DNA of 64,000 nt from contig CP136061.1 in assembly GCA_032622095.1 (NCBI GenBank), positions 252,041,582 through 252,105,581 of the forward strand, given 5' to 3'. The translations under genes and the position numbers were made by a program. Origin of the DNA: Siphonodentalium dalli. Its lineage: Eukaryota > Mollusca > Scaphopoda > Gadilida > Siphonodentaliidae. Shown here piece after piece: positions 13,362 through 61,614 of the stretch (position 1 is its first letter; the number at the start of each line of letters is the position of its first letter). Under the pieces are notes generated by a model. That model made no database searches, was not told the origin of the DNA, and worked only from the letters and a program-made list of their open reading frames with translations.

Positions 13362-14129
13362 ATGGGGCTTCGAATGGTGGCTAATATGCTGCTCGTGTGT
13401 GTGGCACACTGCTCAATTCTCATCAACCGATTCCTCGCGTACTTACCGTTTTATACAAGATTCGTCGAATATATAGTTACATGGGTAGGAAAGAAACGCG
13501 GCTTTTCAAACAAGAAAACTGCTGCACAGCTATCTGTAATTAAAACCTCACGAGAAGGCGATTCCAGAAAACAAGTTGCACAAATGTTGAAACGCTTGCG
13601 ACAAATCTACGAAACAGAAGCGCAAGAGGGAAAGAAGGCATTAAATTCCGTCCTGTTTTCTTTAGACGGCGTTACACATATTAATCTGTTTGATCTAGTC
13701 AAGCATGGGCGACCTATGGTGGTCAATTTTGGCAGTTGCAGCTGACCACCGTTCATGGCGGATCTGCAGAATTTCGCTGAGCTCACGCGCGAGTTCGCGA
13801 AGTACGTAGATTTCGTTTTCATCTACATATCGGAGGCACACCCAGTCGAAGGTTGGAATTTTGAAAAAAATGAATATAAAATCAAAGACCATCGCAATCT
13901 CCAGGATCGAATCGAGGCCGCCAAGATGTTGAAAGCTCGAGTTGGTGATATCTGTCCGATTTTGGTGGATAATTTTGATAATACAACCAGCCGATGGTAC
14001 GGAGCTTTACCGGAACGTCTATACGTCATTCAAGATAGTGTCGTTGTTCTACAGGGAGGGGTTGGTCCATTCCAGTACAGCGTCGATGTTGTTGGGGATT
14101 GGCTAAATAAAACATTCACGAAGCAATAA
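13362..14129 (+). CDS. DIO: Iodothyronine-deiodinase-like selenoprotein D1 (Sec at TGA 13743-13745)
   Basis: The protein is 255 aa if TGA at residue 128 is read as selenocysteine. Deiodinases are membrane-anchored thioredoxin-fold oxidoreductases that remove iodine from thyroid-hormone-type iodothyronines using Sec. Seen here: a hydrophobic N-terminal segment (about residues 5-28) as a likely membrane anchor, NFGSCS-U-PPFM around the catalytic Sec, YISEAHPVEGW with the conserved His, HRNLQDRIEAAKML, and PERLYVIQ...GGVGPF near the C-terminus. These motifs are in the order and spacing known for the family. The length resembles vertebrate type 1 enzymes. The coding exon has no intron. The start is the ATG after ttcgttacagA, shared by all four copies; that tract could also be a splice acceptor for an upstream leader exon. 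Substrate and true hormone role in this animal cannot be inferred. Confidence 0.92.
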
Positions 14130-14464
14130 GGGAACCATATTAGAGAGAGTTCGCATACAACGGCACAGTGAGGTATTGCTCTAGCATGACATTGTAACAA
14201 CAATAACAATCATAACAGAAATTTAGTCAAAGAGCGCTGTAAGCAAACACAAGAACCACATAACCAGAAGCGAAACTTAGACGATGAAACAATGAGATAT
14301 ATATAATTATCTTCCGATTCCGTATCCTGGATGGAAACATAATAGAGATTAATATGATCCACACATTAACGCTTTGTCTGATTAAGAAATAAATACACTG
14401 CGCAACGGCGTGCATGTATAGTAGAATTTGGCCATAGACATAGAAGCTGATTGTAGGACGAGCC

Positions 14465-14768
14465 GAGGCAGAGTTTTACAATCAGTTTATGTGGGCGGAG
14501 TTATACAATCAGATTATGTGGGCGGAGTTTTACATTCAGTTTATGTGGGCGGAATTTTACTATCAGTTAATGTGGGAAGAGTTTCACAATCAGTTTATGT
14601 GGGCGGAGTTTTGCAACCAGTTTAATGTGGGCGCAGTTTTTCAATCAGTTTATGTGGGCAGAGTTATACAATCAGATTATGTGGGCGGAGCTTTACAATC
14701 AGTTTTGTGGGCGGAGTTTTACAATCTTATGTGGGCTTAATTTTACAATCAGTTTATGTGGTCAAAAT
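14465..14768. repeat. 28-bp tandem repeat (cagtttatgtgggcggag) in D1 3' region
   Basis: About eleven imperfect units contain tttatgtgggcggagttt and tacaatcag. The same array in almost the same order lies at 22187-22478 after D2, and none is seen after D4. It produces short spurious ORFs rich in MWAEF. Confidence 0.9.
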
Positions 14769-14983
14769 TCGGCTATACACGCCGATACGCATTGAATGTA
14801 TTTGTTTTGTAATTCGAATGTATGTTTTCGTCGAAAATTTAGTATTACAATTGTACATGTAACTATTTTACCGCCAATATATCCAGAGGAGAAAAATGTA
14901 TATTATATATCAGAATTATATCACAAATCTGTCACACCTTTCGGTTTAAAAATATGTTCTATATTATTTCAGAAATCGACATA

Positions 14984-15070
14984 CTGGCCAGAGTGGAAAC
15001 AAATGATGACTGAAGCTATAAAAGGTTTAAACCCCAGCTCAGTCGGATGTCGATTTCGCACTCTTACCAT
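14984..15070 (+). promoter_or_regulatory. SECIS element D1-a
   Basis: SECIS elements in the 3' UTR direct UGA recoding to selenocysteine. Seen: quartet strands TGAT (15004-15007) and GGAT (15045-15048) able to form tandem G.A pairs; helix II GACTGAAGCT with AGCTCAGTC (one bulged A); an apical ATAAAA (15018-15023) followed by a GGTTT/AAACC mini-stem, as in form-II SECIS; lower helix CTGG..AGAGTG with CACTCT..ACCA. It lies 0.85 kb after the D1 stop. Confidence 0.85.
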
Positions 15071-15328
15071 AATGTTGAACTCTTAATGTTGAAAGTCTGT
15101 CACTGTACAACTGTATATTGCATCTACCTGAAAATTTTGGAGGCCTCTATACAACATTTCACCATATGCAAATATATACCTGAAGTTTCAAAACAGTTAT
15201 ATGGCTTTAACATATTTGTGTTATATATGTTCTTGCATGACTGTGTTATTGGTGTATATCGCAAAGCTGCCACACTTCTCGGGTTTTCAAAGATGTATAT
15301 AAAGTATAGTATTCCAGAAATCGACATA

Positions 15329-15351
15329 CTGGCCAGAGTGGAAACAAATGA
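15329..15351 (+). promoter_or_regulatory. Truncated SECIS, 5' half only
   Basis: CTGGCCAGAGTGGAAACAA and ATGA match the 5' half of the other SECIS copies. The sequence then diverges to atggtaactgtactc, with no A-rich loop or 3' strand. It occupies the place where D2 carries its split SECIS and is unlikely to function. Confidence 0.75.
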
Positions 15352-15548
15352 ATGGTAACTGTACTCTCCCCGGTTGCAGGAGAAATGCTGCAGAGATCAA
15401 ATGTTCCTTTAGTTGCACTTAATCGCTTGATGAATCTTATGCGCTCACTATGGCGAATGGCCACTATTTATCAGTTCATTCTTGCCTCACCTCTCGCTAT
15501 TTCATAGATATACATGTAATAGTATACAGTATTTCATAGATTGACATA

Positions 15549-15635
15549 CTGGCCAGAGTGGAAACAAATGATGACTGAAGCTATAAAAGGATTACACCTC
15601 AGCTCAGTCGGATGCTAGATTTGCACTCTTGCCAG
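15549..15635 (+). promoter_or_regulatory. SECIS element D1-b
   Basis: Same architecture as D1-a: TGAT (15569-15572) opposite GGAT (15610-15613), helix II GACTGAAGCT/AGCTCAGTC, and apical ATAAAA at 15583-15588. The lower helix is the best in the window: CTGGCCAGAGTG against CACTCTTGCCAG pairs at 11 of 12 positions. It lies 1.4 kb after the D1 stop. Confidence 0.85.
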
Positions 15636-15911
15636 AATGTATCGAGGAAGTGGTGACAAGGGGTATGCCTCCCACAGTTGGTCAACATATTCAATATTTT
15701 GGAACTGTCATGCCGTTAGTTATGGTTTGTTCGATTTTAAATGCAATGACCGTCAATTTGATATATGTAACTAACCAGATATCATTAGTACACATGCACC
15801 TTATTTTTTCGGCTATATTTATCTCCATGTGTATGTTTTATACATGTATACATCATGTACTTGATATAGTGTAAATGTCTGACACGCCTCGTGAAGCCTA
15901 TGGTGAATATT

Positions 15912-15917
15912 AATAAA
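15912..15917 (+). terminator. Poly(A) signal, D1 unit
   Basis: AATAAA in the context gaatattaataaattaatctg. The same block with AATAAA follows the last SECIS in the D2 and D4 units, and the shared 3' block diverges soon after. Confidence 0.6.
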
Positions 15918-15984
15918 TTAATCTGAATCTAAATCTGAGCATGAATTTGCGAACAGTAGACCATAACAGCGTGATCTGCACGAC

Positions 15985-16030
15985 CGGGGCCACTCGACAC
16001 ATGGACAACCCTACCCGAGACAATTAATGG
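15985..16030. repeat. GAC-AACCC-GACC simple repeat, short form
   Basis: A few degenerate units (acatggacaaccctacccgagacaa) follow the D1 poly(A) signal. The same motif is greatly expanded after D2 (23890-24140) and D4 (61655-62135). Confidence 0.6.
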
Positions 16031-16039
16031 CTAAGACAC

Positions 16040-17460
16040 TGCGCTTGTGTTGTCTTATGAAGCCAATCAACGAACCAACATTCGAGCATTTAACAACAGA
16101 CAATTGGGTGCGAGTTGTGCAAAATTCAAATTCAAATTAGTTTATTCTCATTCATCATCATGATATGATATATAGAGATGACAAATATACATGTAATACA
16201 TTATACATAAAATAGGTATGGCGTTAATACTAACAATTAAGTACATATTTTCTAACGTTTACATATCATGAATATGGTCATATAGGGAAGGTTCGTGCTG
16301 TCTAAGTTGCTAAAAAGGGGGTTGGAATGGGTTGTGCTGTGTTGGGAGCGGTGAACTCGTCAAGTAGACGTTCGTCTTATATAATCGCATAATTTATGTA
16401 GGACGCGCAAGAGAGTAGACGGGCGCGAAGCGCCCGGGATGGTCGAAAAGATCGAGTGATCTTCTCCTTCACCCCACGGTTTGTTGTTGTTGGAGATATT
16501 GTACACAGAAAATTGTCATGTCTGAACCCGGCAAAGGTTGAGTTGAATTGAATTGAATGTTGTGTGAGGGAGGGCCCACGAGCTTTAATATGGGGTATGA
16601 TGGTGGAGTCCCGAGTTGTCCCTTTAATGATTTTGTTGTTGCTGAGCGAGTCATTTGGTGCGCTGGAATGAAGAACGGGGCCCGTGTTGTAATGATAAAG
16701 TTTGTTAGTTGTTTAAAAGTATGCATATGTATAAACTCAAGCAAACGCAAGCAGGAAGACCAGGGACCAGACGGATGCGGTACGCGCAGAGCGAGAGCGA
16801 GACATAGGGAGAATTGCATGTAGATAGGGCCCGCAATTGCACTTAGAGTTTTGCGTAGTTGTCGTATGTTGTTGTATTTACCTCCCCCATATTGTACGGG
16901 CGTACGTGAATGCGTATTTTGACAATTTCATATAGTGTTAATTAAGATTTTTATTTATTCACTGAAATAAATTTGAATGACAATGAACAAGGCATGATAT
17001 ACTCTCTATATATATGTATGACTATTGTATTGCACTGAAAGAGATTTTAATTCCAATAGCATGTTTGAACACTGTTGTATTGAATGGCATGTGATGTTGA
17101 GCAGAAGAGAAGAAGGGCGCGAACACCCGAGATGATCGATGTGATATAGAGAGAGAGAGAGGTGAGGAGATTGGAGTTTGGCGAGTTACCCAGAGGTGTT
17201 GATGCATTTTTCTATCCCACCCTTCTTCCCCATGTCGTGCACGGGCGTAGGTGAAATCATATTTTTAACAATCATATACAGTGTTAATTCAGATTTATAT
17301 TCGCTGAAGTAATTTTGAACGATAATGAACAGGACATGATATACATCTATATATATATAAGTATTGTACAGTGAACATATTTTTTTGGTTTATATGATTT
17401 TTTTGGTTATTTTATTTTGGTAAAATGATGTATGTACAAATTGATAATTACAATGTGTTC
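16040..17460. other. No intact gene; possible LINE-related flank
   Basis: There is an imperfect direct repeat of about 150 bp (16870-17040 and 17215-17375; shared gtgttaatt..agattt, aatgaacaaggcatgatata). The phrase caaattcaaattagttta near 16130 would read on the minus strand as an A-rich tail and could be the 3' end of the minus-strand LINE, but this is not established. Short ORFs here have no recognisable domain. Confidence 0.35.
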
Positions 17461-19735: not shown

Positions 19736-19779
19736 CGTATAGACGTGACAACAGGAACGTCGTTCAGCCCAGCGAGTGG

Positions 19780-20275
19780 GAGTGGGGGTAAGTAAGCCGG
19801 TTGACGTGAACACGCATGGAACGATTAGGTGTGATAGTTGTGGGTAGAGAAAGTAAGCCGGTTGGCGTTAACACGCATGGAACGATTAGGTGTGATAGTT
19901 GTGGGTAGGAGAAAGTAAGTCGGTTGGCGTTAACACGCATGGAACGATTAGGTGTGATAGTTGCGGGTGTGAGAAAGTAAGTCGGTTGACGTGAACACGC
20001 ATGGAACGATTAGGTGTGATAGTTGCGGGTGGTAGTAAGTAAGCCGGTTGGCGTGAACACGTATGAACGATTATGTGTGATGGTTGCGGGTGGTAGTAAG
20101 TAAGCCGGTTGGCGTGAACACGTATGAACGATTATGTGTGATAGTTTCGGGTGGTAGTAAGTAAGCCGGTTGACGTGAACACGCATGGAACCATTATGTG
20201 TGATAGTTGCGGGTGGTAGTAAGTAAGCCGGTTGGCGTTAACACCCATTGAACGATTCTGTATGATAGTTGCGAT
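19780..20275. repeat. 61-bp minisatellite upstream of D2 (about 8 units)
   Basis: Units contain agtaagccggttg(a/g)cgt, aacacgcatggaacgatta and gtgtgatagttgcggg. Two interleaved subtypes occur, taacacgcatggaacg and gaacacgtatgaacg, which differ by one base in length. Confidence 0.9.
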
Positions 20276-20375: not shown

Positions 20376-20547
20376 AGTTTTTGATATTCTTCTAATTTAA
20401 ACACATCGCAAACGTGTCCCTGAAGGCTACATGAACTGGATTGGTTGCACCTTGAATTTTCGTACAATCGTATTGATGCATCGGTGCTCACACATCGCAG
20501 AAAACAAGCCATCCATTGTTACTAAAAATAAACCTTTTCGTTACAGA
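20376..20547 (+). promoter_or_regulatory. Conserved D2 leader/upstream region
   Basis: Conserved with D4 (59540-59698) and in pieces at D3: aatttaaacacatcgcaaac, cgtacaatcgtattgatg, cacatcgcag, catccattgttactaaa, ccttttcgttacag. The minisatellite stops at its left edge and the ATG at its right. It may hold the promoter, a leader exon and a splice acceptor (ttcgttacag), but no TATA box or start site was identified. Confidence 0.5.
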
Positions 20548-21315
20548 ATGGGGCTTCCAATGGTGGCTAATATGCTGCTCGTGTGTGTGGTACACTTCTT
20601 TACTCTCATCAACCGATTCCTCACGTACTTACCGTTTTATACAAGATTCGTCGAATATATAGTTCCATGGGTAGGGAAGAAACGCGGCTTTTCAAACAAG
20701 AAAACTGCTACACAGCTCTCTCTAATTAAAAGCACAAGAGAAAGCGATTCCAAAAAACAAGTTGCACTAATGTTGAAACGCTTGCGACAAATCTACGAAA
20801 CAGAAGCACAAGATGGAAAGAAGGCATTAAATTCCGTCCTGTTTTCTTTAGACGGAGTTACACAGATTAATTTGTTGGATCTTGTCAAGCATGGGCGACC
20901 TCTGGTGGTCAATTTTGGAAGTTGCAGCTGACCACCGTTCATGACGGATCTGCAGAATTTCGCTGAGCTCACGCACGAGTTCGCGAAGTACGTAGATTTC
21001 GTTTTCATCTACATATCGGAGGCACACCCAGTCGAAGGTTGGAATTTTGAAAACAATGAATATAAAATCAAAGACCATCGCAATCTCCAGGATCGAATCG
21101 AGGCCGCCAAGATGTTGAGTGCTCGAGTTGGTGATATATGTCCGATTTTCGTGGATAATTTTGATAATACAACCAGCCGATGGTACGGAGCTTTCCCGGA
21201 ACGTCTATACGTCATTCAAGATAGTGTCGTTGTTCTACAGGGAGGGATTGGTCCATTCCTGTACAGCGTCGATGTTGTTGGGGATTGGCTAAATAAAACA
21301 TTCACGAAGCAATAA
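20548..21315 (+). CDS. DIO: Iodothyronine-deiodinase-like selenoprotein D2 (Sec at TGA 20929-20931)
   Basis: The protein is 255 aa with Sec at residue 128, collinear with D1 and D4. The N-terminal hydrophobic segment is ANMLLVCVVHFFTLI. The catalytic motif is NFGSCS-U-PPFM, followed by YISEAHPVEGW, HRNLQDRIEAAKML, FPERLYVIQ and GGIGPFLYS. Relative to D1, most changes are conservative and the frame is intact throughout, which argues for function or recent duplication. One intact SECIS (22702-22788) lies 1.39 kb downstream. The second is split by a transposon. A 519-bp TTAA element also interrupts the 3' region. Expression depends on whether D2-a alone suffices and whether the longer UTR is transcribed. 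Confidence 0.92.
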
Positions 21316-22053: not shown

Positions 22054-22186
22054 TTAATATGTTCCTATATGATCCACACATTAACGCTTTGTCTGATTAA
22101 GAAATAAATACACTGCGCAACGGCGTGCGTGTATAGTAGAATTTGGCCCGATAGACATAGACGCTGATTGTAGCACGAGTCGAGGC

Positions 22187-22478
22187 AGAGTTTTACAATC
22201 AGTTTATGTGGGCGGAGTTATACAATCAGATTATGTGGGCGGAGTTTTACATTCAGTTTATGTGGGCGGAATTTTACTATCAGTTAATGTGGGAAGAGTT
22301 TCACAATCAGTTTATGTGGGCGGAGTTTTGCAACCAGTTTAATGTGGGCGCAGTTTTTCAATCAGTTTATGTGGGCAGAGTTATACAATGAGATTATGTG
22401 GGCGGAGCTTTACAATCAGTTTATGTCGGCGGAGTTTTACAATCTTATGTGGGCTGAATTTTACAATCAGTTTATGTG
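22187..22478. repeat. 28-bp tandem repeat in D2 3' region
   Basis: Counterpart of 14465-14768, with the same unit order and the same variant units (gttaatgtgggaagagtttc, tttaatgtgggcgcagttt). The array therefore predates the D1/D2 duplication. Confidence 0.9.
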
Positions 22479-22701
22479 GTCAAAATTCGGCTATACACGC
22501 CGATACGCATTGAATGTATTTGTTTTGTAATTCGAATGTATGTTTTCGTCGAAATTTTAGTATTACAATTGTACATGTAACTATTCTACCGCCAATATAT
22601 CCAGAGGAGACAAATGTATATTATATATCACAATTATATCACAAATCTGTCACACCTTTCGGTTTTAAAATATGTTCTATATTATTTCAGAAATCAACAT
22701 A

Positions 22702-22788
22702 CTGGCCAGAATGGAAACAAATGATGACTGAAGCTATAAAAGGTTTAAACCCCAGCTCAGTCGGATGTCGATTTCGCACTCTTACCAG
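22702..22788 (+). promoter_or_regulatory. SECIS element D2-a
   Basis: TGAT (22722-22725) faces GGAT (22763-22766). Helix II is GACTGAAGCT/AGCTCAGTC, the apical run ATAAAA is at 22736-22741, and the GGTTT/AAACC mini-stem is present. The lower helix is CTGG..AGAATG against CACTCT..ACCAG, with one pair weakened relative to D1. This is the only unbroken SECIS of the D2 unit. Confidence 0.85.
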
Positions 22789-23060
22789 AATGTTGAACTC
22801 TTAATGTTGAAAGTCTGTCACTGTACATTGCATCTACCTGAACATTTTGGAGGTCTCTATACAACATTTCACCATATGCTATACAGTCTTTTCTGCAAAT
22901 ATTTACCTGAAGTTGCAAAAAATATATATGGCTTTAACATAGATTGTATTATATAATTATTTTCTTGCGTGACTGTGTTATTGGTGTATATCGCAAAGCT
23001 GCCACACTTCTCTGGTGTTCAAAGGTGTATATAAAATATAGTATTCCAGAAATCGACACA

Positions 23061-23543
23061 CTAGCCAGAGTGGAAACAAATGATGACTTAACCCTTTACC
23101 CAACAGAACGACCCTGTGCCAATGCATTCTCTTATATATGCGAGTCGACCATAGGTCGCCTCGCATATATAAGAGAATGCATTGGCTTAACACATTAAAA
23201 ATTATAAAATTGTTAAAGAATGTAAGAATAAATCGTAAAAAGTGTTAAAAAAAGATTTTTTTTAGGCCAATGCATTCTCTTATATATGCGAGGCGACCTA
23301 TGGTCGACTCGCATATATAAGAGAATGCATTGGCACAGGGCATAACTGTAACTATCACAATGTGGTCAAGGAGCCGGTTCCAATGATATCCATATGTGTA
23401 TGGTTCTATTGAGACAGACCGAAGATATTTTAGGCTGTTGAAGCTTTATTTGGCCGGTTTTGGCCGGTTTGTTGGGTAAAGGGTTAAGCCATAAAAGGTT
23501 TAAACTTCAGCTGAGTCGGATATCAGATTTGCACTCTTGCCAG
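23061..23543 (+). promoter_or_regulatory. SECIS element D2-b, split by MITE P2
   Basis: The 5' strand (23061-23087: lower helix, ATGAT and gac) and the 3' strand (23488-23543: ataaaa, mini-stem, cagctgagtc, GGAT, CACTCTTGCCAG) match an ordinary SECIS. P2 and its TTAA duplication interrupt them inside helix II. The helix cannot form in the usual way with 392 bp inserted. Confidence 0.85.
23092..23483. mobile_element. TTAA-type (piggyBac-like) MITE P2
   Basis: This 392-bp near-identical copy of P1 is flanked by TTAA at 23088-23091 and 23484-23487, with the same CCCTTTACCCAACA ends and two internal hairpins. The pre-insertion sequence is known from the sister SECIS copies: gatgactgaagctataaaa became gatgac-TTAA-insert-TTAA-gccataaaa. 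Confidence 0.9.
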
Positions 23544-23823
23544 AATGTCGAAATCGAGGAAGTGGTGAGAGGGGGAATGCCTCCCAAAGTTGGTCAAAAT
23601 ATTCAATATTTGGAACTGTCATGCCGTTAGTTATAGATTGTGTGATTTTAAATGCAATGGCCGTCAATTTGATACATGTAACTAACCAGATATCATTCAT
23701 GCACATCTACCTTATTCTTCTGCTATATTTATCTGCATGTGTATGTTTTATACTTGTATACACATCATGAAATTAATATAATGTAAATGTCTGACATGCC
23801 TCGTGAAGCCTGTTGTGAATATT

Positions 23824-25859: not shown

Positions 25860-25867
25860 GGACAAAT

Positions 25868-27500: not shown

Positions 27501-27779
27501 TAACCTCGCAACAACCACATGTCCTAGTAAAATAATCACATTATTGGTCAATGTCATGCCTTAAACATGATTATTGGTCAATATCAGACTGTAACAGAGG
27601 CTGACATAGTTCTGATAGTTCAATTTTATAGTTAAAATTTGGGGTAAACTATGTGGATTCCAAGAGTAAAATATTTACCTACATATTCAACCAATTTGCT
27701 TATGGAAATCACCGATGTTGGCGGATTGAAACGCTAGAAGCGGAATATCTCTAACGAATGCATGGTGAGCCAACTGCAA

Positions 27780-28945
27780 CAAAATGTATATATCGTCGGT
27801 GGGCTTATAAATGTATATATCTTCGGTGGGCTTATAACTGTATATATCTTCGGTTGGCTTATAAATGTATATATCGTCGGTGGGCTTATAAATGTATATA
27901 TCTTCGGTGGGCTTATAAATGTATATATCTTCGGTGGGCTTATAAATGTATATATCGTCGGTGGGCTGATAAATGTATCTATCTTCGGTGGGCTTATAAA
28001 TGTATATATCGTCGGTGGGCTTATAAATGTATATATATTCGGTGGGCTTATAAATGTATATATCGTCGGTGGGCTTATAAATGTATATATCGTCGGTGGG
28101 CTTATAAATGTATATATCGTCGGTGGGCTTATAAATGTATATATCGTCGGTGGGCTTATAAATGTATCTATCTTCGGTGGGCTTATAAATGTATATGTCG
28201 TCGGTGGGCTTATAAATGTATATGTCTTCGGTGGGCTTATAATGTATATATCTTCGGTGGGCTTATAAATGTATATATCGTCGGTGGGCTTATAAATGTA
28301 TTTATCGTCGGTGGGCTTATAAATGTATATATCTTCGGTGGGCTTATAAATGTATTTATCGTCGGTGGGCTTATAAATGTATATATCGTCGGTGGGCTTA
28401 TAAATGTATCTATCGTCGGTGGGCTTATAAATGTATCTATCGTCGGTGGGCTTATAAATGTATATATCGTCGGTGGGCTTATAAATGTATATATCGTCGG
28501 TGGGCTTATAAATGTATATATCGTCGGTGGGCTTATAAATGTATATATCGTCGGTGGGCTTATAAATGTATATATCGTCGGTGGGCTTATAATTGTATAT
28601 ATCTTCGGTGGGCTTATAAATGTATATATCGTCGGTGGGCTTATAAATGTATATATCGTCGGTGGGCTTATAAATGTATATATCGTCGATGGGCTTATAA
28701 ATGTATATATCTTCGCTGGGCTTATAAATGTATATATCGTCGATGGGCTTATAAATGTATATATCGTCGGTGGGCTTATAAATGTATATATCGTCGGTGG
28801 GCTTATAAATGTATCTATCGTCGGTGGGCTTATAAATGTATATATCGTCGGGGGGCTTATAAATGTATATATCGTCGGTGGGCTTATAAATGTATATATC
28901 GTCGGTGGGCTTATAAATGTATATATCGTCGGTGGGCTTATAAAA
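27780..28945. repeat. 27-bp minisatellite (about 43 units)
   Basis: Units of 27 bp read aatgtatatatcgtcggtgg then gcttata, with cgt/ctt and ata/cta variants. Because 27 is a multiple of three and the unit lacks stops in several frames, it yields long ORFs on both strands (9-aa repeats NVYIVGGLI on + and KPTDDIYIY on -). One 26-bp unit near 28240 shifts the frame on both strands. No promoter, splice structure or non-repeat domain supports a protein. Confidence 0.95.
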
Positions 28946-38179: not shown

Positions 38180-38568
38180 TATATACACACAATCGCTATT
38201 GACGGTGTGTCTGTATGTGTATCGCTATTGACGGTGTGTATGTGTGTGTATCGCTATTGACGGTGTGTCTGTATGTGTATCGCTATTGACGGTGTGTCTG
38301 TATGTGTATCGCTATTGACGGTGTGTCTGTATGTGTATCGCTATTGACGGTGTGTCTGTATGTGTATCGCTATTGACGGTGTGTCTGTATGTGTATCGCT
38401 ATTGACGGTGTGTCTGTATGTGTATCGCTATTGACGGTGTGTCTGTATGTATATCGCTATTGACGGTGTGTCTGTATGTGTATCGCTATTGACGGTGTGT
38501 CTGTATGTGTATCGCTATTGACGGTGTGTCTGTATGTGTATCGCTATTGACGGTGTGTCTGTATGTTG
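38180..38568. repeat. 29-bp minisatellite (about 13 units) upstream of D3
   Basis: Units gtgtatcgctattgacggtg then tgtctgtat, almost perfectly conserved, with one gtatgtgtgtgtat variant and one gtatat variant. Confidence 0.95.
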
Positions 38569-38799: not shown

Positions 38800-38852
38800 C
38801 AAAGTTGTGACGATTTTGATACTCTCCTCCCAATTTAAACATATCGCAAAAA
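38800..38852 (+). promoter_or_regulatory. Distal part of the D3 leader
   Basis: gattttgatactctcctccc and aatttaaacatatcgcaaa match the leader upstream of D2 (20380) and D4 (59545). The leader then breaks into the 30-bp minisatellite and resumes at 39515. Confidence 0.5.
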
Positions 38853-39508
38853 TGCCACATTCGACTGATCTGGTTATAAACATGCCACATTCGACTGATC
38901 TGGTTATAAACATGCCACATTCGACTGATCTGGTTATAAACATGCCACATTCGACTGATCTGGTTATAAACATGCCACATTCGACTGATCTGGTTATAAA
39001 CATGCCACATTCGACTGATCTGGTTATAAACATGCCACATTCGACTGATCTGGTTATAAACATGCCACATTCGACTGATCTGGTTATAAACATGCCACAT
39101 TCGACTGATCTGGTTATAAACATGCCACATTCGACTGATCTGGTTATAAACATGCCACATTCGACTGATCTGGTTATAAACATGCCACATTCGACTGATC
39201 TGGTTATAAACATGCCACATTCGACTGATCTGGTTATAAACATGCCACATTCGACTGATCTGGTTATAAACATGCCACATTCGACTGATCTGGTTATAAA
39301 CATGCCACATTCGACTGATCTGGTTATAAACATGCCACATTCGACTGATCTGGTTATAAACATGCCATATTCGACTGATCTGGTTATAAACATGCCACAT
39401 TCGACTGATCTGGTTATAAACATGCCACATTCGACTGATCTGGCTATAAACATGCCACATTCGACTGATCTGGTTATAAACATGCCACATTCGACTGATC
39501 TGGTTATA
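38852..39508. repeat. 30-bp minisatellite (22 units) inside the D3 leader
   Basis: Twenty-two nearly perfect units (atgccacattcgactgatct then ggttataaac); only three single-base variants were noticed (39368, 39444, 39509). The array lies between leader segments that are adjacent in D2 and D4. The unit resembles the leader phrase ggccacatggactggatt of D4, so it probably amplified from it. The ORFs of about 250-280 aa across it are by-products of a period divisible by three. Confidence 0.95.
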
Positions 39509-39543
39509 TACACCTTAATTTCCGTACAATCGTATTGATGCAT

Positions 39544-39804: not shown

Positions 39805-39904
39805 AACAAGACATCCATTCTTACTAAAATAAACCGTATTCGTTACAGAATGGGGCTTCTAAAAGACATCCATTCTTACTATAATAACACGTTTTCATTA
39901 CAGA
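39805..39904 (+). repeat. Duplicated acceptor/start module before D3
   Basis: The segment catccattcttacta.. through ..ttacagaatggggcttc occurs twice in tandem, at about 39810-39864 and 39868-39918. The first copy has its own ATG (39850) but reads MGLLKDIHSYYNNTFSLQNG, out of the deiodinase frame. The second copy starts D3. If ttacag is used as a splice acceptor, two alternatives exist. Confidence 0.75.
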
Positions 39905-40699
39905 ATGGGGCTTCGAATGGCGGCTGATATGCTGCTCATGTGTGCCGTGTTCTTCGTCATGCTCGTCAACCGATTCCTCTCGTTGTATCTACCGTTTTAC
40001 ATAAGATTCATCGAATATTCAGTGCTATGGGTAGGGAAAAAACGCAGCTTGCCAAACACGACAACTGCTGCAAACATATCTGCAATAAAAAGCTTAGGAG
40101 AAAACGATGCCAAACAACTAGTTGCTGAACTATGGAAATTCTTACAAAACATCTACGCAACAGAAGCAAAGGAGAAAAATAAAGCATTAAATTCCGTCCT
40201 GTATTCTTTAGACGGAGTTACACAGATTAATTTGTTGGATCTTGTTAAGCATAAGCGACCTCTGGTGGTGAATTTCGGTAGTTGTAGCTGACTGCCGTTC
40301 ATGGAGGAACTTGAGAAGTTCGCTGAGCTCACGCGAGAGTTCGCGAGGTTCGCAGATTTCGTTTTCATCTACATAACGGAGGCGCATGCAGTCGATGGTT
40401 GGAAAATTGCACATAATGAATATAACATCAAAGAACACCGCAATCTCCAGGATCGACTCGAGGCCGCTAAGATGTTGAGTGATCGAGTTGGTGATATTTG
40501 TCCAATTTTCTTAGATAATTTTGACAATACAACCGGTCGCATGTACGGAGCTTTCCCGGAACGTCTATATGTCATTCAGGATGGTGTTCTTGTTCTACAA
40601 GGAGGGTTGGGTCCATTCATGTATAGTGTTGACACTGTAAGGACTTGGCTAAACAAAACATTCACGAAACATCGACGGAACGGAACGCTACACTCTTAA
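39905..40699 (+). CDS. DIO: Iodothyronine-deiodinase-like selenoprotein D3 (Sec at TGA 40289-40291)
   Basis: The protein is 264 aa with Sec at residue 129 and is the most divergent of the four. It retains a hydrophobic anchor (MLLMCAVFFVMLVNRFL), the catalytic NFGSCS-U-LPFM motif with Leu instead of the first Pro found in the other copies, YITEAHAVDGW with the conserved His, HRNLQDRLEAAKML, FPERLYVIQ and GGLGPFMYS. It has one extra residue near the membrane segment (SLYLP) and a 9-residue C-terminal extension after FTKH. The nearest recognisable SECIS is 4.1 kb downstream at 44833, so whether this gene can still insert Sec is open. Without a SECIS it would stop at residue 128. Confidence 0.88.
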
Positions 40700-44100: not shown

Positions 44101-44725
44101 ACTTACAACTGTCATTTATATTAACAATAGGCACCTTTCTCATACCATTTATCTGTAACATGATTAACCAAAATTATGTAAATATACATTCAGTTAGTTG
44201 TATACAATCATGTAAATATACAGTCAGTTAGTTGTATACAGTAAACCACGTGTCCGTAATGTTACGGAACAATGAGATGGCAGATATTTATCCAGTCATT
44301 TCTTCCGTAAAATTTACAGCAACCCTATTAACATTGTACTAAACTGCATAGGGCACAAAGACGTATTGCTCTAACGTGTGTTACAAGATTAACAGTTTCT
44401 ATACTAAATACTCATTATCGAGCAGTTATCCTTTAATATTTTTTTGTATACCAGAAAATAAAAAATAAAATCAATATTAATTTATAGAATCGTTTCCGGC
44501 CAGTGATCTTTGATTCATATTTATTATTGTGTAACCACCAAACTATATAAAACTTGTTATAGGAAGAGATAGACCATATTTATACCCAGGAAACCATATA
44601 AAACTTGTTCTAGGGAGAGATATACTATATTTATACCCAGGAAACTATATAAAACTTATTATAGGAAGAGATAGACTAGCTTTATACCCAGGAAACTATA
44701 TAAAAACTTGTTATAGGATTGTAAC
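41150..44725. other. No gene seen; several short tandem duplications
   Basis: A 99-bp tandem duplication lies at 41822-42022 (gatcccca..tggcgtttat, cgtgtcctg-like phrases). Repeats of ataggattcagtactatt with gggtggggt occur at 43840-44040. A gtcagttagttgtataca duplication is at 44190-44240. A period of about 59 bp is seen at 44540-44720 (actatataaaacttgttata, ggaagagatagac). Part of 44450-44540 matches the 21535-22053 MITE. The ORF at 41490-41855 lacks family features. Confidence 0.5.
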
Positions 44726-44727
44726 AA

Positions 44728-44970
44728 TTCTACCGCCAATATATCCAGAGCAAAAATATATATCACAAAGCTGCCACACTTCTCCGGTATTCACATATAG
44801 ATATGCACTATAGTATTTCAGAAATCAACATACTGGCCAGAGTGGAAACAAATGATGACTGAAGTTATAAAAGGTTAAAACCTCAGCTCAGTCGGATATC
44901 GATTTTGCACTCTTACCAGAATGTTAAACTCTGAATGTTGAAAGTCTGTCACTGTATATTGCATCTAGTT
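44728..44970. repeat. Detached deiodinase 3'-UTR fragment
   Basis: Contains taccgccaatatatccagag and tctgtcactgtatattgcat, matching the flanks of SECIS a of D1/D2, and cacaaagctgccacacttct, matching the left flank of SECIS b. The block looks like a recombinant of the two SECIS neighbourhoods. No deiodinase coding sequence is attached. Confidence 0.75.
44833..44919 (+). promoter_or_regulatory. Orphan SECIS element
   Basis: TGAT (44853-44856) faces GGAT (44894-44897). Helix II is GACTGAAGTT with AGCTCAGTC (a G.U wobble replaces one pair), apical ATAAAA is at 44867-44872, and the lower helix is CTGGCC-AGAGTG with CACTCT-TACCAG. The fold seems intact. The nearest upstream Sec gene is D3, 4.1 kb away with a transposon between, so it is either the D3 SECIS in a very long or spliced UTR or a relic. 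Confidence 0.8.
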
Positions 44971-47625
44971 ATACAAATTTGAGGCATTTGATAGACTATT
45001 TTACAGTACGATATGTAGGTTTTTATTTGCAAAAATAAACATAACTTGCTGTCGAAAAATATATGTTTAATATAATTATATGTTCTTGAATTTGCTATTG
45101 ATGTTTTTATTCCCCAGAACATAGTTCGTCGGCCAATTCTCAGAAGACATAGGTTTCGATTTCGCTGCACCCCGTCCTCGCATGTTTTCATTTCTATACA
45201 TCAATATAAAGAGCGTCTTCTGTGGAACGCCGTATATCGTTTGCCAATGTATATCGTTTGTCAATATATGTATATCAAATGTTTTTTTTCAATTTGGTTC
45301 AGTTTATACATTCTCGAATTATGAACCTTTTCAGCTCAACTTCACAGTCAAGTTTGAGCTATTGTCATGGGTTGTCGTCCGTGCGTCCGTCAATCGGAAC
45401 GTCCGTCAATACATATAAATTCCTTTAGCACACCATTACATGCCATATCCCTCATCCAATCGTCACTAAAACGCATACGGTGTTCATGGTAACCTCCAGA
45501 TGACGGCTATTGATATTTCCGATATTATTTTTTAAAACATGACCGCCATTTTGATGTTCAAATTGGAATGGATTAGCATACCCTGTAGTCCGAATTTATT
45601 GGAGAAATGTTTTCAAAATTAACAGGCAAGTTTAGGATCATCTCTAGATGGGAGCTACCGAATTTGAACGATTTTCGACGAAAAACATGGATTTTACTTT
45701 ACTTTGCATGACTAGGTCCTTTGGCACAACCTACATGCCACATTCATCATGCGATCGTCACCAAACTTCCTTTGGTTCTTCGGTGTGATCTCTAGATGGG
45801 AGCCAATAAATTGTTTTCTCCAAAATTCATTAAAAAAACATTGCCGTCAGCAGCCATCTTGGATTTCAAATTTGAATCCATTGGCACACCCTGCAGCCCG
45901 CATTTATTTGCAGAATTGTTTTGAAAAAGTACAGTCACGATAAGGATCACCTCTAGATGGGAGATATCCAATTTGAACAATTTTCGATCAAAAACATGGC
46001 GGATAGCAGCCATCAAATGGATGTTATTGTTTGCATCACTAAATATATATTTCGGCATGCCCTACAACCAACAGTTGTTATCCAATTGAGCCCAAACTTT
46101 TAATGGCTAATATGGCTGACCTCTGGAGTTACTTAGACATATAAACTTTCCGCATTCCTTATCACTCCATTAACTGTAATATTTGAAATTATTCTGCATA
46201 ATCCTAACATTTCCAGTTATTGGCCAATTCTAACATGACATGCGCCATCCTCCGTGGTTGGCAAATTACCATCAGTCCCATCAAGTATGCATGACCCCCC
46301 CCCCCCCCCCCCCCCCCCCCCCGCCCACCACGTTGACCTTACATATATTTTTAAGTATCACCATCAAAAGTTAACAAATGGTCAGTGCACAAATGTATAA
46401 CCTGTGTTATATTTCTTTGAAACAGCATACAATCGCGTGAATAGTGCCTATATTATATCGTTCAATATACAGTTGATTAGTCATCATCGACGTGGCTAGA
46501 GGGCTCCGTGGAGTTTCCAGCTGCCTCCCGCCCCTTTTAACCAGGCCGAACTCGCATGCAATGTCGCGTAATTTCATTTGCTTCCCACACAGTGGCTTGG
46601 AATTACTTAACTGTGCTTATTGTGGGGAGGAATCACGAAACAATTTGAAATATGAGCATGAACACTGCAAAATCCTAGTATCTATAAAAGTCTAATTCCA
46701 TGAAAATCCAGGCCTCGATTTGTCTTGTTTTTTTCTAGAATATATATAAACATGTATAGGTCTAACTACAGACAAATTCAGGCCTCGATTTCGTTTTGTC
46801 TCTTTGTTTTATTTTTAATTTGTAATTGATTAGCACTTTAGCAGGTTTTGACTGGCCAATGACTGACCTCAAGAATTCCAAGTTTTGTACATTTCCAAAC
46901 TGACACTGAGATTGGAAAATTCCCGTCGAAAGTTTTGACCGAATGTAGGAAAGTTGTCTAAACACCAACAAATTCCCCGCTAATTACTAATTACCCCCAC
47001 CCCAATATGAACGCCCGAGTCCCTGTTACAACAGTCGTTTTATGCATAGTTTTATTCTATTTTCTCGACTCGCAGGTAGTATAGCATCAAATAATTCCTT
47101 GCGTATTCTTAAAGGAATCAGGGAGCTAAATGTGTTCTAGAGTCGGGGGAGCGAGTACACCGTGGTGTGAAGGTGAAGGTAATTATATAATTATATACCT
47201 CACTATACTTAACTGTAACTATATACGTGACACGTGATATCCAGGTTATAATATGTCTCCAATTCTCACACGAATTATATTATATTGAAAACGCACTTGC
47301 TTTATAAAACCATTCAAGTATACAAATAAATCGTGTAAGTTGCGTGTACACGTGTGCCTGTGCGTGTTGGTGCGTGCGTCCCATTCGGTTGGGATCAGTT
47401 GGCCAGTAGGATGACAATCCAATGCTTCAGTATATCCTGCGCGTCCGGGTGCACGTGTGTGCGTTTGGCATACACCAATGTATGCCGTTGTGGCTCACCC
47501 CTATGTGTGCGTACCATATGGCAACGAAATGGCAGTTCGGATGCATTACTACCGCGTGTAGTCATGCCGAACAGTACGTGACGGTACGTGTACGTAGGCG
47601 CGCAGACCCAACTCCATGCATAATG

Positions 47626-48846: not shown

Positions 48847-48850
48847 TATA

Positions 48851-52989: not shown

Positions 52990-53358
52990 TGCTTCGTGCT
53001 TGCGGAGTCCACTCGAATCCACGAATGATATGTTGCATGTAGTACATGCGTGTGTGACCTCGATGCAAACCTTGCTGTGTCGATTTCTGACGTCCTTTGA
53101 ACTAAAGGTTTTGTTGCACCCTCTGCAAACACGTGGATAGCTTTGTGTATGTCGGTTCACGTGTGACTGGAAGAGATTTGGTTTGATAAATGTCTTTCCA
53201 CATCCTTCAAACGGGAAACATTGTTTTAATGCTTCGTTGTGTATTTTGTAATGTTGTCTGAACACGGATAGACTGAATAACATCACACCACACTTCTCGC
53301 AGAGAACATTATGGTGGTGGCCATATCTGTGAGCCCTGAATTCATCACTCGACGACAT
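52942..53358 (-). CDS. C2H2 zinc-finger protein ORF in transposon Z
   Basis: 138 aa with four zinc-finger-like units in order: CEKC..HYKIH (C-x2-C-x12-H-x3-H, residues about 19-39); CFPFEGC..HVNRH (x5 between cysteines instead of the usual 2 or 4); CRGC..HSKVC (a C2HC variant); CTTCNISF..HEASVH. TFIIIA-like fingers bind DNA or RNA. Its 3' end overlaps the end of the plus-strand decayed gene by 48 bp, so the two are convergent. The frame is intact, unlike that neighbour. A further exon upstream (beyond 53358) is possible. Whether it is a captured host gene fragment or a transposon protein is not clear. Confidence 0.65.
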   Translation of the reverse strand: MSSSDEFRAHRYGHHHNVLCEKCGVMLFSLSVFRQHYKIHNEALKQCFPFEGCGKTFIKPNLFQSHVNRHTQSYPRVCRGCNKTFSSKDVRNRHSKVCIEVTHACTTCNISFVDSSGLRKHEASVHVHVYSLGLNLCH

Positions 53359-57372: not shown

Positions 57373-57374
57373 TA

Positions 57375-57520: not shown

Positions 57521-57639
57521 AATAATCGTTCTCGTGATCAGCTTCAGGTTCTCGTGGTTTGCAAGTTCAACACCGAAGTTTTCCAAATGGGTTTTTACTT
57601 CCGAGAAGAATCGCATATAATCTTGAATCATAATGATAG

Positions 57640-57840
57640 TCATGAATAGTCTAAATTGGATAGATTATCTTATTCGTGCCTTCAGAATTAAGAAGGGTGA
57701 CGTTAGTCCTGATTGGTAGTTATGAACTCTACTCACTCGCGCTTCTCGCTCGGGAATGGAGTTAATAACTTCCAGTCAAGGCAAACGCCATCCTCCTTAA
57801 TTATGAAGACACTCGTTCGGATGATCTATCCAATACTAAT
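57640..57840. repeat. Palindromic element R3 upstream of D4
   Basis: Third copy of R1/R2: attggatagat, cagaattaagaaggg, ctcgcgcttctcgctcgg, gatgatctatccaat. Upstream of it, 57605-57640 also matches D1 and D2 (gcatataatc..gaatcataat). Confidence 0.75.
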
Positions 57841-57884
57841 CGTATAGACGTGACAACAGGAACGTCGTTCATCCGAGCGAGTGC

Positions 57885-59430
57885 ATGGGAGTGGGGGTAA
57901 GTAAGCCGGTAGGCGTGAACACGAATGGAACGATTATGTGTGATAGTTGCGGGTAGAGAAAGTAAGCCGGTTGGCGTTAACACGCATGGAACGATTAGGT
58001 GTGATAGTTGCGGGTGGGAGAAAGTAAGTCGGTTGGCGTTAACACGCATGGAACGATTAGGTGTGATAGCTGCGGGTGGTAGAAAGTAAGTCGGTTGGCG
58101 TTAACACGCATGGAACGATTAGGTGTGATAGTTGCGGGTGGGAGAAAGTAAGTCGGTTGACGTGAACACGCATGGAACGATTAGGTGTGATAGTTGCGGG
58201 TGGGAGAAAGTAAGTCGGTTGACGTGAACACGCATGGAACGATTAGGTGTGATAGTTGCGGGTGGGAGAAAGTAAGTCGGTTGGCATTAACACGCATGGA
58301 ACGATTAGGTGTGATAGTTGTGGATGGGAGTAAGTAAGCCGGTTGGCGTGAACACGTATGAACGATTATGTGTGATGGTTGTGGATGGGAGAAAGTAAGC
58401 CGGTTGGCGTTAACACGCATGGAACGATTAGGTGTGATAGTTGCGGGTGTGAGAAAGTAAGTCGGTTGACGTGAACACGCATGGAACGATTAGGTGTGAT
58501 AGTTGTGGATGGGAGTAAGTAAGCCGGTTGGCGTGAACACGTATGAACGATTATGTGTGATGGTTGCGGGTGGGAGTAAGTAAGCCGGTTGGCGTGAACA
58601 CGTATGAACGATTATGTGTGATGGTTGCGGGTGGGAGTAAGTAAGCCGGTTGGCGTGAACACGTATGAACGATTATGTGTGATGGTTGCGGGTGGGAGTA
58701 AGTAAGCCGGTTGGCGTGAACACGTATGAACGATTATGTGTGATGGTTGCGGGTGGGAGTAAGTAAGCCGGTTGGCGTGAACACGTATGAACGATTAGGT
58801 GTGATAGCTGCGGGTGGTAGAAAGTAAGTCGGTTGGCGTTAACACGCATGGAACGATTAGGTGTGATAGTTGCGGGTGGGAGAAAGTAAGTCGGTTGACG
58901 TGAACACGCATGGAACGATTAGGTGTGATAGTTGCGGGTGGGAGAAAGTAAGTCGGTTGGCATTAACACGCATGGAACGATTAGGTGTGATAGTTGCGGG
59001 TGGGAGAAAGTAAGTCGGTTGGCGTTAACACGCATGGAACGATTAGGTGTGATAGTTGCGGGTGTGAGAAAGTAAGTCGGTTGACGTGAACACGCATGGA
59101 ACGATTAGGTGTGATAGTTGTGGATGGGAGTAAGTAAGCCGGTTGGCGTGAACACGTATGAACGATTATGTGTGATGGTTGCGGATGGGAGTAAGTAAGC
59201 CGGTTGGCGTGAACACGTATGAACGATTATGTGTGATGGTTGCGGGTGGGAGTAAGTAAGCCGGTTGGCGTGAACACGTATGAACGATTATGTGTGATGG
59301 TTGCGGGTGGGAGTAAGTAAGCCGATTGGCGTGAACACGTATGAACGATTATGTGTGATGGTTGCGGGTGGGAGTAAGTAAGCCGGTTGGCGTGAACACG
59401 CATGGAACGATTATGTACGAGAGTTGCTGG
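57885..59430. repeat. 61/62-bp minisatellite upstream of D4 (about 25 units)
   Basis: Same unit as upstream of D1 and D2. Homogeneous blocks of the cgtatgaacg subtype (58530-58800, 59140-59400) alternate with blocks of the cgcatggaacg subtype, indicating local block duplications. Minus-strand ORFs of 79-146 aa across it are repeat artefacts. Confidence 0.95.
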
Positions 59431-59529
59431 TGGATGTGTGCGAATGTGCTTGTGGATGAACTGGTATGCTGTGTCAGACTGTATGTATGTGCGTTTGTGG
59501 TATGGTGGTTGGCTGTACTTGTGGACGTG

Positions 59530-59698
59530 AAGTTTATTATATTCTTCTTCCAATTTAAACACATCGCAAACGTGTCGTTGAAGGCCACATGGACTGGATT
59601 CCTTGAATGTCCGTACAATCGTATTGATGCATCGGTGCTCACACATCGCAGAATACAAGCCATCCATTGTTTCTAAAAATAAACCTTTTCGTTACAGA
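59530..59698 (+). promoter_or_regulatory. Conserved D4 leader/upstream region
   Basis: Nearly the same as the D2 leader: aatttaaacacatcgcaaac, ggccacatggactgg, gtacaatcgtattgatgcat, cacacatcgcag, ccttttcgttacag. This is the most complete version against which the D1 deletion and D3 rearrangements can be judged. Confidence 0.5.
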
Positions 59699-60466
59699 AT
59701 GGGGCTTCAAATGGTGGCTAATATGCTGATCGTATGTGTGGGAGACTTCTTAATTCACATCAGCCGATTCCTCACGTACCTACCGTTTTATACAAGATTC
59801 ATCGAATATATAGTTCCATGGTTAGGGGAGAAACGCGGCCTTTCCGACAAGAAAACTGCTGCACAGGTATCTATAATTAAAATCGCAAGAGAAGGCGGTT
59901 CCTTACAACAAGTTGGATCAATGCTGACACGCTTGCGAAACATCTACGAAACAGAAGCGCAAGAGAGAAAGAAGGCAATCAGTTCCGTCCTGTTTTCTTT
60001 AGACGGAATTACACAGATTAATTTGTTGGATCTTGTCAAGCATGGGCGACCTCTGGTGGTCAATTTTGGTAGTTGCAGCTGACCACCGTTCATGGCGGAT
60101 CTGCAGAATTTCGCTGAGCTCACGCGAGAGTTCGCGAAGTACGCAGATTTCGTTTTCATCTACATATCGGAGGCGCACGCAGTCGAAGGTTGGAATTTTG
60201 AAAACAATGAATATAAGATCAAAGAACATCGCAATCTCCAGGATCGACTCGAGGCCGCCAAGATGTTGAAAGCTCGAGTTGGTGATAGCTGTCCGATTTT
60301 CGTGGATAATTTTGACAATACAACCAGCCGATGGTACGGAGCTTTCCCGGAACGTATATACGTCATCCAAGATGGCGTCGTTGTTCTACAGGGAGGGATT
60401 GGTCCATTCCTGTACAGCGTCGATGTTGTTGGGGATTGGCTAAATAAAACATTCACGAAGCAATAA
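59699..60466 (+). CDS. DIO: Iodothyronine-deiodinase-like selenoprotein D4 (Sec at TGA 60080-60082)
   Basis: 255 aa, Sec at residue 128. N-terminal anchor ANMLIVCVGDFLIHI, then FLTYLPFYTRFIEYIVPWLG shared with D1/D2. Catalytic NFGSCS-U-PPFM, YISEAHAVEGW, HRNLQDRLEAAKML, FPERIYVIQ, GGIGPFLYS. In several positions (AHAVEGW, DRLEAAK, IQDGV) it agrees with D3 rather than with D1/D2, placing it between them. It has the richest SECIS set (three) and the shortest distance from stop to first SECIS (0.28 kb), so it is the best candidate for an active member. The frame is open from at least 59603, but the ATG at 59699 matches the other copies. Confidence 0.93.
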
Positions 60467-60743
60467 TGGAACCATATTAGAGAGAGTTCGCATACAACGA
60501 CATGAGGTATTGCTCTAGCATGACATTGTAACAACAATAAATAACAGTCATAACAGAAATTCAGTCAAAGGGCGCTGTAAGCAAACACAATTCGAATGTA
60601 TGTTTTCGTCGAAATGTTAGTATTACAATTGTAATTATTTTAACTCCAATATATCCAGAGAAAAATGTATATTATATATATCACAAATCTGTCACACCTT
60701 TCGGTTTTAAAATATGTACTATATTATTTCAGAAATGGACATA

Positions 60744-60830
60744 CTGACCAGAGTGGAAACAAATGATGACTGAAGCTATACAAGGTTTGAACCTCAGCTC
60801 AGTCGGATGTCAAACTTGCACTCTTACCAG
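60744..60830 (+). promoter_or_regulatory. SECIS element D4-a
   Basis: TGAT (60764-60767) faces GGAT (60805-60808). Helix II is GACTGAAGCT/AGCTCAGTC. The apical loop is ATACAA, so the A-run is interrupted by C but two A's remain before GGTTT. The lower helix is CTGACC-AGAGTG with CACTCT-TACCAG. Confidence 0.8.
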
Positions 60831-60923
60831 AATGTTGAACTCTTAATCTTGAAAGTATAATATGATATAGTATTTCAGAAAATTGTGTTTTCAACATATA
60901 TATATATTTCAGATATTGACATA

Positions 60924-61009
60924 CTGGCCAGAGTGGAAACAAATGATGGCTGAAACTATAAAAGTTTTAACCTGAGCTCAGTCGGATGTCGATTTTGCAC
61001 TCTTGCTAC
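60924..61009 (+). promoter_or_regulatory. SECIS element D4-b (weakened)
   Basis: TGAT (60944-60947) faces GGAT (60984-60987). Helix II GGCTGAAACT against AGCTCAGTC has an extra mismatch and a wobble. Apical ATAAAA is intact. The lower helix 3' strand is CACTCTTGCTAC, losing pairs at its base. Probably weaker than its neighbours. Confidence 0.7.
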
Positions 61010-61266
61010 AACATGATTCGTGGCAAGCAAGAAACAACATATTCTTCTTGTTTATAATCACAAACAAAAGTAGAATTAATTATATGGCTGTCATTTGGCC
61101 GGCTTGTCTCACTGAGGGCGTGTCATTGTTAACAAACAGGACAGATAATAACGAAATCGTATTTCACTGTAGATTCTAAGAGATACATACGATGATCCAC
61201 GTTTCGGTAATTTTCCGTTATTTTACAGGCAAACATATAATAAATAGTATCTCAGAAATCGACATA

Positions 61267-61352
61267 CTGGCCAGAGTGAAAACAAATGATGACTGAAGCT
61301 ATAAAGGTTTACACCTCAGCTCAGTCGGATGTTAGATTTGCACTCTTGCCAG
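61267..61352 (+). promoter_or_regulatory. SECIS element D4-c
   Basis: TGAT (61287-61290) faces GGAT (61327-61330). Helix II is GACTGAAGCT/AGCTCAGTC, apical ATAAA, and the lower helix CTGGCCAGAGTG with CACTCTTGCCAG is as good as in D1-b. Confidence 0.85.
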
Positions 61353-61608
61353 AATGTCGAAATCGAGGAAGTGGTGACAAAATTGGTCAAAATATTCAAC
61401 ATTTGGAACTGGCATGCCGTTAGTTATGGTTTGTTTGATTTTAAATGCAATGGCCGTCAATTTGATACATGTAACTAACCAGATATCATTCATGCACGTG
61501 TACCTTATTTTTTCTGCTATATTTATCTCCACGTGTATGTGTTATACTTGTATACATCATTAACTTAATATAATGTAAATGTCTGACATGCCTCGTGGTA
61601 TGAATATC

Positions 61609-61614
61609 AATAAA
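61609..61614 (+). terminator. Poly(A) signal, D4 unit
   Basis: AATAAA in gaatatcaataaaataatct, matching the ends of the D1 and D2 units. It gives a 3' UTR of about 1.15 kb. Confidence 0.6.

Follow-up and report, generated by a model that had tools for sequence, protein, structure and literature searches.

Selenocysteine-containing deiodinases are encoded in animal genomes in differing numbers, with 4 in Lottia, 9 in Branchiostoma, 11 in Trichoplax and 12 in Capitella, and in Branchiostoma, Trichoplax (six genes) and Lottia they are found in clusters (PMC3473315). In these clusters two strong selenocysteine insertion sequence (SECIS) elements lie behind the gene Bf.DI_b, and some other members have none (PMC3473315). 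The mussel Mytilus coruscus has two selenocysteine (Sec) deiodinases with SECIS elements, McDx and McDy, according to PMC8481496, and two deiodinases are given for the Pacific oyster in PMC4692385. Here we describe an array of four such genes, designated D1 to D4, in a stretch of 64,000 nucleotides from the scaphopod mollusc Siphonodentalium dalli (assembly GCA_032622095.1, contig CP136061.1, positions 252,041,582 to 252,105,581 of the forward strand), which we call the window. On the evidence of the sequence it is very probable that these are four recently duplicated and probably functional genes for selenoenzymes of the deiodinase family, and that the array arose by local segmental duplication.

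How does the array compare with those already described? It is a well preserved further case of the published selenocysteine-deiodinase clusters, and the expected sort of find. The four genes lie within 47.1 kb of a single sequence and on the plus strand, and thus constitute a tandem cluster in the sense of at least three duplicated genes. The view of the first-pass annotation of this DNA that a local array would be unusual is not borne out, since tandem deiodinase clusters have been published for amphioxus, Trichoplax and Lottia (PMC3473315). Like those, the present array has at least three Sec deiodinase genes in tandem on one sequence, and two strong SECIS elements behind one gene; unlike those, it has all of its genes on the same strand, with several copies of SECIS repeated behind both D1 and D4. 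The mussel proteins McDx and McDy (258 and 242 amino acids) likewise have a TGA-encoded Sec and a SECIS in the 3′ untranslated region (UTR), and a McDx primer spells the same active site, SCSUPPFM. They differ from D1–D4 in being two cloned genes, with no cluster mentioned in the passages of PMC8481496 that bear on them, and the comparison is one of description and primer.

The assignment to the family is clear for all four genes. Each matches the iodothyronine deiodinase profile PF00837 with 186–196 bits (curated cut-off 27) over a region spanning the catalytic domain, and this upholds the original proposal of four deiodinase-like paralogues in about 47 kb, of the lengths given in Table 1 and each with a TGA at the active site. 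Every open reading frame (ORF) contains exactly one in-frame TGA, which falls at the catalytic position, SCSU(P/L)PF. The TGA column is identical in the alignment of the four, and corresponds to the selenocysteine position of mouse DIO3. Compared with the sequences of the PDB, D2 matches mouse DIO3 (4tr3) with an E-value of 8.6e-40 and DIO2 (9h48) with 1.2e-32, and the match to DIO3 continues beyond the TGA up to the domain's end, placing the TGA on the selenocysteine. An absence of deiodinase matches from the C-terminal halves, named beforehand as evidence to the contrary, is therefore not what is found, as these halves match mouse DIO3 and DIO2. D1, D4 and D3 are 89, 84 and 71% identical to D2, respectively, and no further deiodinase copy was found in the window by tblastn with D2 and D3 as queries at E 1e-3. 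A longer reading of D2 could begin at an earlier ATG at 20431 and would still contain one TGA, while a longer reading of D4 from 59402 requires readthrough of two extra TGA codons; we take both extensions to be probably due to chance because they cross the candidate splice acceptor discussed below.

An AlphaFold model of D1, built from an 11-row alignment (mean predicted local distance difference test score (pLDDT) 72), was used to search the PDB by structure. The top matches are DIO3 and then DIO2; thioredoxin- and peroxiredoxin-like proteins come after them, at E-values that are far weaker. All four sequences begin with a hydrophobic N-terminal stretch, which a linker joins to the catalytic domain containing the Sec codon. 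The best N-terminal 19-residue segments reach 1.8–2.2 on the Kyte-Doolittle scale within residues 1–28, and values are ≤1.46 after residue 60; the D1 model has a helix at residues 2–26, where its confidence is low (pLDDT 58–68). In the numbering of DIO3, in which the selenocysteine is Sec170, the residues Ser167, Cys168, Tyr197, Glu200, His202, Trp207, His219, Cys239, Glu259 and Arg260 are kept in all four proteins. The catalytic Sec (TGA at 170) and its Ser/Cys/Tyr/Glu/His/His network are thus present throughout, as in the vertebrate DIO3 and DIO2, and the loop from Trp207 to His219 aligns with DIO3 free of gaps. Several of these residues have been discussed in terms of proton relay, loop anchoring and substrate contact (PMC7506546 and PMC11592359). 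Thr169 is replaced by Ser in all four, and Pro171 by Leu in D3. Unlike the vertebrate enzymes, D1/D2/D3/D4 have V/I/L/I at the position of DIO3 Arg275, D/D/E/D at that of Arg176 and K/N/H/N at that of Asp211; Phe258 is also replaced, and the four proteins form a separate clade.

The product would be a membrane-anchored enzyme removing iodide reductively from an iodothyronine or a related iodinated phenol, with the selenolate of Sec attacking the iodine. According to PMC7506546, ping-pong kinetics go with a Pro-Pro sequence following Sec, and propylthiouracil sensitivity with a Ser at the second place. Pro is present at Sec+2 in all four proteins, from which we predict DIO2/3-like kinetics and insensitivity to propylthiouracil, less surely for D3 with its Leu at Sec+1. 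The sequence allows no prediction of substrate or ring preference. D1–D4 might be selenoenzymes of deiodinase fold whose main substrate is neither thyroxine (T4) nor triiodothyronine (T3) but, for example, a different iodinated or halogenated phenol, or a peroxide. This we consider unlikely. Arg275, the proposed clamp for the substrate carboxylate, is replaced together with Arg176 and Asp211 (roles from PMC7506546 and PMC11592359), and a non-selenoprotein member from amphioxus acts on 3,3′,5-triiodothyroacetic acid (TRIAC) and not on T3 or T4 (PMC8699336). However, the residues of the proton relay and the loop anchor are kept, except for the change of Thr169 to Ser. Moreover, position 275 is variable in the family: among 25 database rows, of which three (P0070, P0072 and P0073) look misaligned at this position, 6 have Arg, and the rabbit deiodinase has Ser. 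We therefore draw no functional conclusion from the loss of Arg275, and have rejected it as a sign of a functional shift. The residue table underlying these counts, and the larger tree below, comprise the 31 of 79 rows that have letters at positions 170, 202 and 275, including 25 of 73 database proteins. In the same table, which contains protein sequences only, the position of Sec is occupied by W in 23 of the 25 database relatives; the TGA has probably been read as W by gene callers, and these relatives would illustrate how gene prediction mishandles such genes.

If the TGA is decoded, the sequence that follows should be under selection. We calculated the ratio of nonsynonymous to synonymous divergence (dN/dS) by the method of Nei and Gojobori for each pair of genes, with the halves split at the TGA and the neutral expectation taken with kappa 1–3. 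After the TGA the ratio is 0.41 for D1–D3, 0.37 for D2–D3 and 0.35 for D3–D4, and the nonsynonymous deficit is significant in all three of these pairs (P 0.0005–0.04 over kappa 1–3). It is 0.57, and not significant, for both D1–D4 and D2–D4. For D1–D2 it is 2.63, an uninformative value derived from 9 nonsynonymous and 1 synonymous changes. The comparison of the two sides of the TGA called for in the first-pass annotation thus reveals constraint in the three pairs with D3 but gives no significant result in the other three. In six of six pairs the second half, after the TGA, has the smaller number of nonsynonymous changes. By these measures the half downstream of the TGA is not free to drift, contrary to the ratio near 1 that the first-pass annotation had named as refuting, though the youngest copies carry little information. 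Conserved coding sequence beyond an in-frame TGA, a criterion for selenoproteins, is seen by homology in all four genes and by selection in three of the six pairs, those with D3. Between D1 and D2 synonymous divergence is 0.099 in the half before the TGA and 0.012 in the half after it, a drop that gene conversion would fit.

The strongest support for reading the TGA as selenocysteine comes from SECIS-like hairpins downstream of all four genes, which the first-pass annotation did not give. The 3.5 kb behind each gene were scanned, and part of the motif found there then served as query for the whole window. The scan revealed the hairpin motif ATGATGACTGAAGCTATAAAAGG...CAGCTCAGTCGGAT behind D1, D2 and D4 and no credible SECIS in the 3.5 kb behind D3; the search of the whole window added the copy assigned to D3 and the first of D4. 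The ATGA and GGAT sequences are invariant among seven aligned copies, for which the mean column identity is 93%. Six of the seven (the exception being D4 SECIS b) fold into helix I, an internal loop, helix II and an apical loop with adenines. A strict descriptor, with the ATGA/GA core, helix II and unpaired apical adenines, finds at least one copy behind every gene of the array; in the whole window it gives six hits on the plus strand, all downstream of D1–D4, and one on the minus strand at 27557. AATAAA or ATTAAA follows 182–473 nt after the last intact SECIS of each gene, and the end assigned to the cluster in the first-pass annotation, 61614, coincides with the final base of the AATAAA that follows D4 SECIS c.

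Table 1. Positions in the window of the deiodinase genes, the putative SECIS elements behind them and features upstream of the coding sequences (CDS).
Feature	Position	Strand	Details
D1 deiodinase-family selenoprotein CDS	13362..14129	+	255 amino acids; in-frame TGA = codon 128; PF00837 E 1.4e-57
D2 deiodinase-family selenoprotein CDS	20548..21315	+	255 amino acids; TGA = codon 128; PF00837 E 2.4e-57
D3 deiodinase-family selenoprotein CDS, most diverged	39905..40699	+	264 amino acids; SCSULPF; TGA = codon 129; PF00837 E 8e-58
D4 deiodinase-family selenoprotein CDS	59699..60466	+	255 amino acids; TGA = codon 128; PF00837 E 6.3e-55
D1 SECIS a	14985..15072	+	core ATGA 15003; 874 nt past stop; z -3.36; Rfam SECIS_1 22.5 bits, E 0.023
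D1 SECIS b	15550..15636	+	core ATGA 15568; 1439 nt past stop; z -4.01; AATAAA at 15912
Further SECIS-repeat copy behind D1, 5′ half only	15306..15351	+	blastn 95.7% over 46 bases
D2 SECIS a, only intact one found behind D2	22703..22790	+	core ATGA 22721; 1406 nt past stop; z -1.28
D2 second SECIS, split	23038..23555	+	pieces 23038-23091 and 23486-23555 flank insertion 23088-23487; fold z +0.74
SECIS assigned to D3	44834..44921	+	core ATGA 44852; 4153 nt past stop; z -2.82; AATAAA at 45034
D4 SECIS a	60745..60832	+	core ATGA 60763; 297 nt past stop; z -1.71
D4 SECIS b, decayed	60925..61008	+	ATGA 60943; helix II absent from minimum-energy fold; z -1.77; missed by strict descriptor
D4 SECIS c	61268..61354	+	core ATGA 61286; 820 nt past stop; z -4.08; AATAAA 61609-61614
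Candidate 3′ splice site of D1	13328..13360	+	TACTAA-like branch site, TTTTCGTTACAG, one base before ATG
62-bp minisatellite upstream of D4	57891..59433	+	25.1 copies; GTRAGT 23 times
Related 62-bp array upstream of D2	19788-20273	+	7.9 copies; GTRAGT 7 times

A number of observations speak against four functional selenoprotein genes. The half preceding the TGA is near neutral, with dN/dS of 0.67–1.36 and a significant deficit in no pair, and the contrast of the two halves by Fisher's test reaches p 0.018 for D3–D4 and 0.088–0.967 for the other five pairs; with so weak a contrast it is homology, together with the shortage of nonsynonymous changes past the TGA in the pairs involving D3, that carries the case. 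Given the 9:1 ratio of changes between D1 and D2 after the TGA, some copies may have relaxed constraint. Ten first-order Markov sequences give 1–6 descriptor hits each, a range which the count in the window does not exceed, and the argument from SECIS is therefore carried by placement and not by number. Nor are the copies independent of one another. When searched alone D1 SECIS a does not reach the gathering score of 35 for SECIS_1 (RF00031), and this model gives no row in the whole window or in the 5.3 kb behind D3. Compensatory changes among the copies are found in 0 of 26 pairs, because the columns are so nearly identical. D2 SECIS a folds weakly, with 25 of 200 shuffled sequences folding equally well, and the first poly(A) signal behind it (23194) sits within the insertion. 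Lastly, AATAAA or ATTAAA occurs between the stop codon and the first SECIS once in D1, four times in D2, seven times in D3 and once in D4.

If any copy is losing the decoding of Sec it is most likely D2 or D3, whose ORF would be intact but whose mRNA would end before a working SECIS, so that the product stops at the TGA. An insertion splits the second SECIS of D2, the first SECIS of this gene has the weak fold noted above, and the only SECIS of D3 lies 4153 nt away, with all seven potential poly(A) signals in between; members of published clusters whose SECIS is incomplete or absent have been described as probably inactive (PMC3473315). Yet the ORFs are intact beyond the TGA in all four genes, and the clearest constraint there is found in the pairs with D3. 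The SECIS of D3 is moreover contained in a block of about 250 bases (44718-44967) that is 78–82% identical to the 3′ SECIS blocks of D1, D2 and D4, with AATAAA 182 nt later. On balance we would give such a loss a low probability, and favour four functional genes, in which the mRNA would keep a SECIS in its 3′ UTR and the UGA would be decoded as Sec.

The flanking sequences indicate how the array was generated. On both sides of the coding region, D1, D2 and D4 have non-coding sequence in common at about 84–94% identity (among the matches listed), which points to segmental duplication and not to retroposition. The lack of an intron in the coding region of all four genes would also suit an origin as processed retrocopies, made from a spliced deiodinase mRNA and then fixed as a dead array. 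But in addition to these shared flanks, a splice-acceptor-like site before the ATG is kept in all four, the ORFs are intact and SECIS elements are retained, and we regard retrocopies as highly improbable. We prefer local segmental duplication, which would have built an array with D3 as its most diverged member and D1 and D2 as the closest pair. The partial SECIS copies behind D1 and D2, together with the three copies behind D4, suggest that the 3′ region of the ancestor already contained several SECIS in a row, and the duplicated units would have carried such blocks with them. The array provides a clean and analysable case in which a family of selenoprotein genes has grown locally along with its recoding signals.

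In the 31-row tree D1–D4 form a single clade (support 97/92) that excludes the mouse DIO2 and DIO3 and one rabbit deiodinase. The clade is also found (100/99) in a smaller 11-row tree with the database proteins P0001-P0004 and P0006, from which P0005 and P0007 were omitted for their incomplete C-terminal parts. The four do not group with a vertebrate DIO1, DIO2 or DIO3 subtype in the 31-row tree, where the vertebrates are the three proteins just named. The tree suggested in the first-pass annotation therefore unites the four genes, but their deeper placement is weak, with 14 of 28 inner branches open, the bootstrap unsettled and the position among the other rows poorly supported. The same annotation saw in the array a bearing on the origin of iodothyronine signalling. 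The separate grouping of the four from the included vertebrate deiodinases points instead to a lineage-specific expansion with little bearing on that question, and the array alone does not speak to how vertebrate thyroid signalling arose.

The description of the genes as intronless is established for the coding region only, as a candidate 3′ splice site ends one base before the ATG in all four. That of D1 is listed in Table 1, and comparable sites end at 20546 (D2), 39903 (D3) and 59697 (D4). Each has a short pyrimidine run and TTACAG; a TACTAA-like branch site is present in D1 and D2, with weaker forms in D3 and D4, and the segment containing the site is duplicated in D3 (39808-39914). GTRAGT is the splice-donor consensus. 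It occurs 49 times on the plus strand of the window, including the copies in the 62-bp arrays upstream of D2 and D4. The candidate acceptor next to the ATG, taken with these arrays, makes an intron in the 5′ UTR plausible for genes of the array.

The insertion in the second SECIS of D2 is 396 bases long, with TTAA on each side and perfect inverted ends (18 of 18 bases, including the TTAA). Elements with inverted ends CCCTTTACCCAACA beside TTAA are present in three copies, at 23088-23487, ~1512-1912 and ~62390-62667, with one end mismatched. The TTAA targets and CCC ends of the insertion resemble those of elements of the piggyBac type. The inner palindrome of the element yields weak microRNA rows in Rfam. 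The search of the whole window gave 18 rows, all below gathering scores, and 12 of the 16 microRNA rows lie inside the three copies; we have read these rows as repeats and rejected them as microRNAs.

The paralogues differ in their SECIS elements, with one to two strong copies located 0.3 to 4.2 kb from the stop codon. The number and spacing of SECIS could be evolving by tandem duplication, decay and interruption by transposons, such that the 3′ UTRs may tune the incorporation of Sec gene by gene, while the minisatellite of D2 and D4 varies the 5′ UTR; we hold this to be distinctly unlikely. The intact and transposon-split copies form a natural series on how much SECIS a deiodinase mRNA needs.

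A 27-bp repeat, GGCGGAGTTTTACAATCAGTTTATGTG, is present in 11 copies each at 14467-14761 (D1) and 22184-22479 (D2), between the stop codon and the first SECIS. Among six other ORFs or pieces of the window scanned with Pfam, only C2H2 zinc fingers scored above cut-off, and a coding piece of this kind is found on the minus strand at 53080-53358 (PF00096, 6.9e-07). Long minisatellites occupy 8216-11214 (32 bp x 94), 27782-28944 (27 bp x 43), 38192-38566 (29 bp x 13) and 38848-39512 (30 bp x 22); in all but the first of these, several frames contain long repetitive ORFs.

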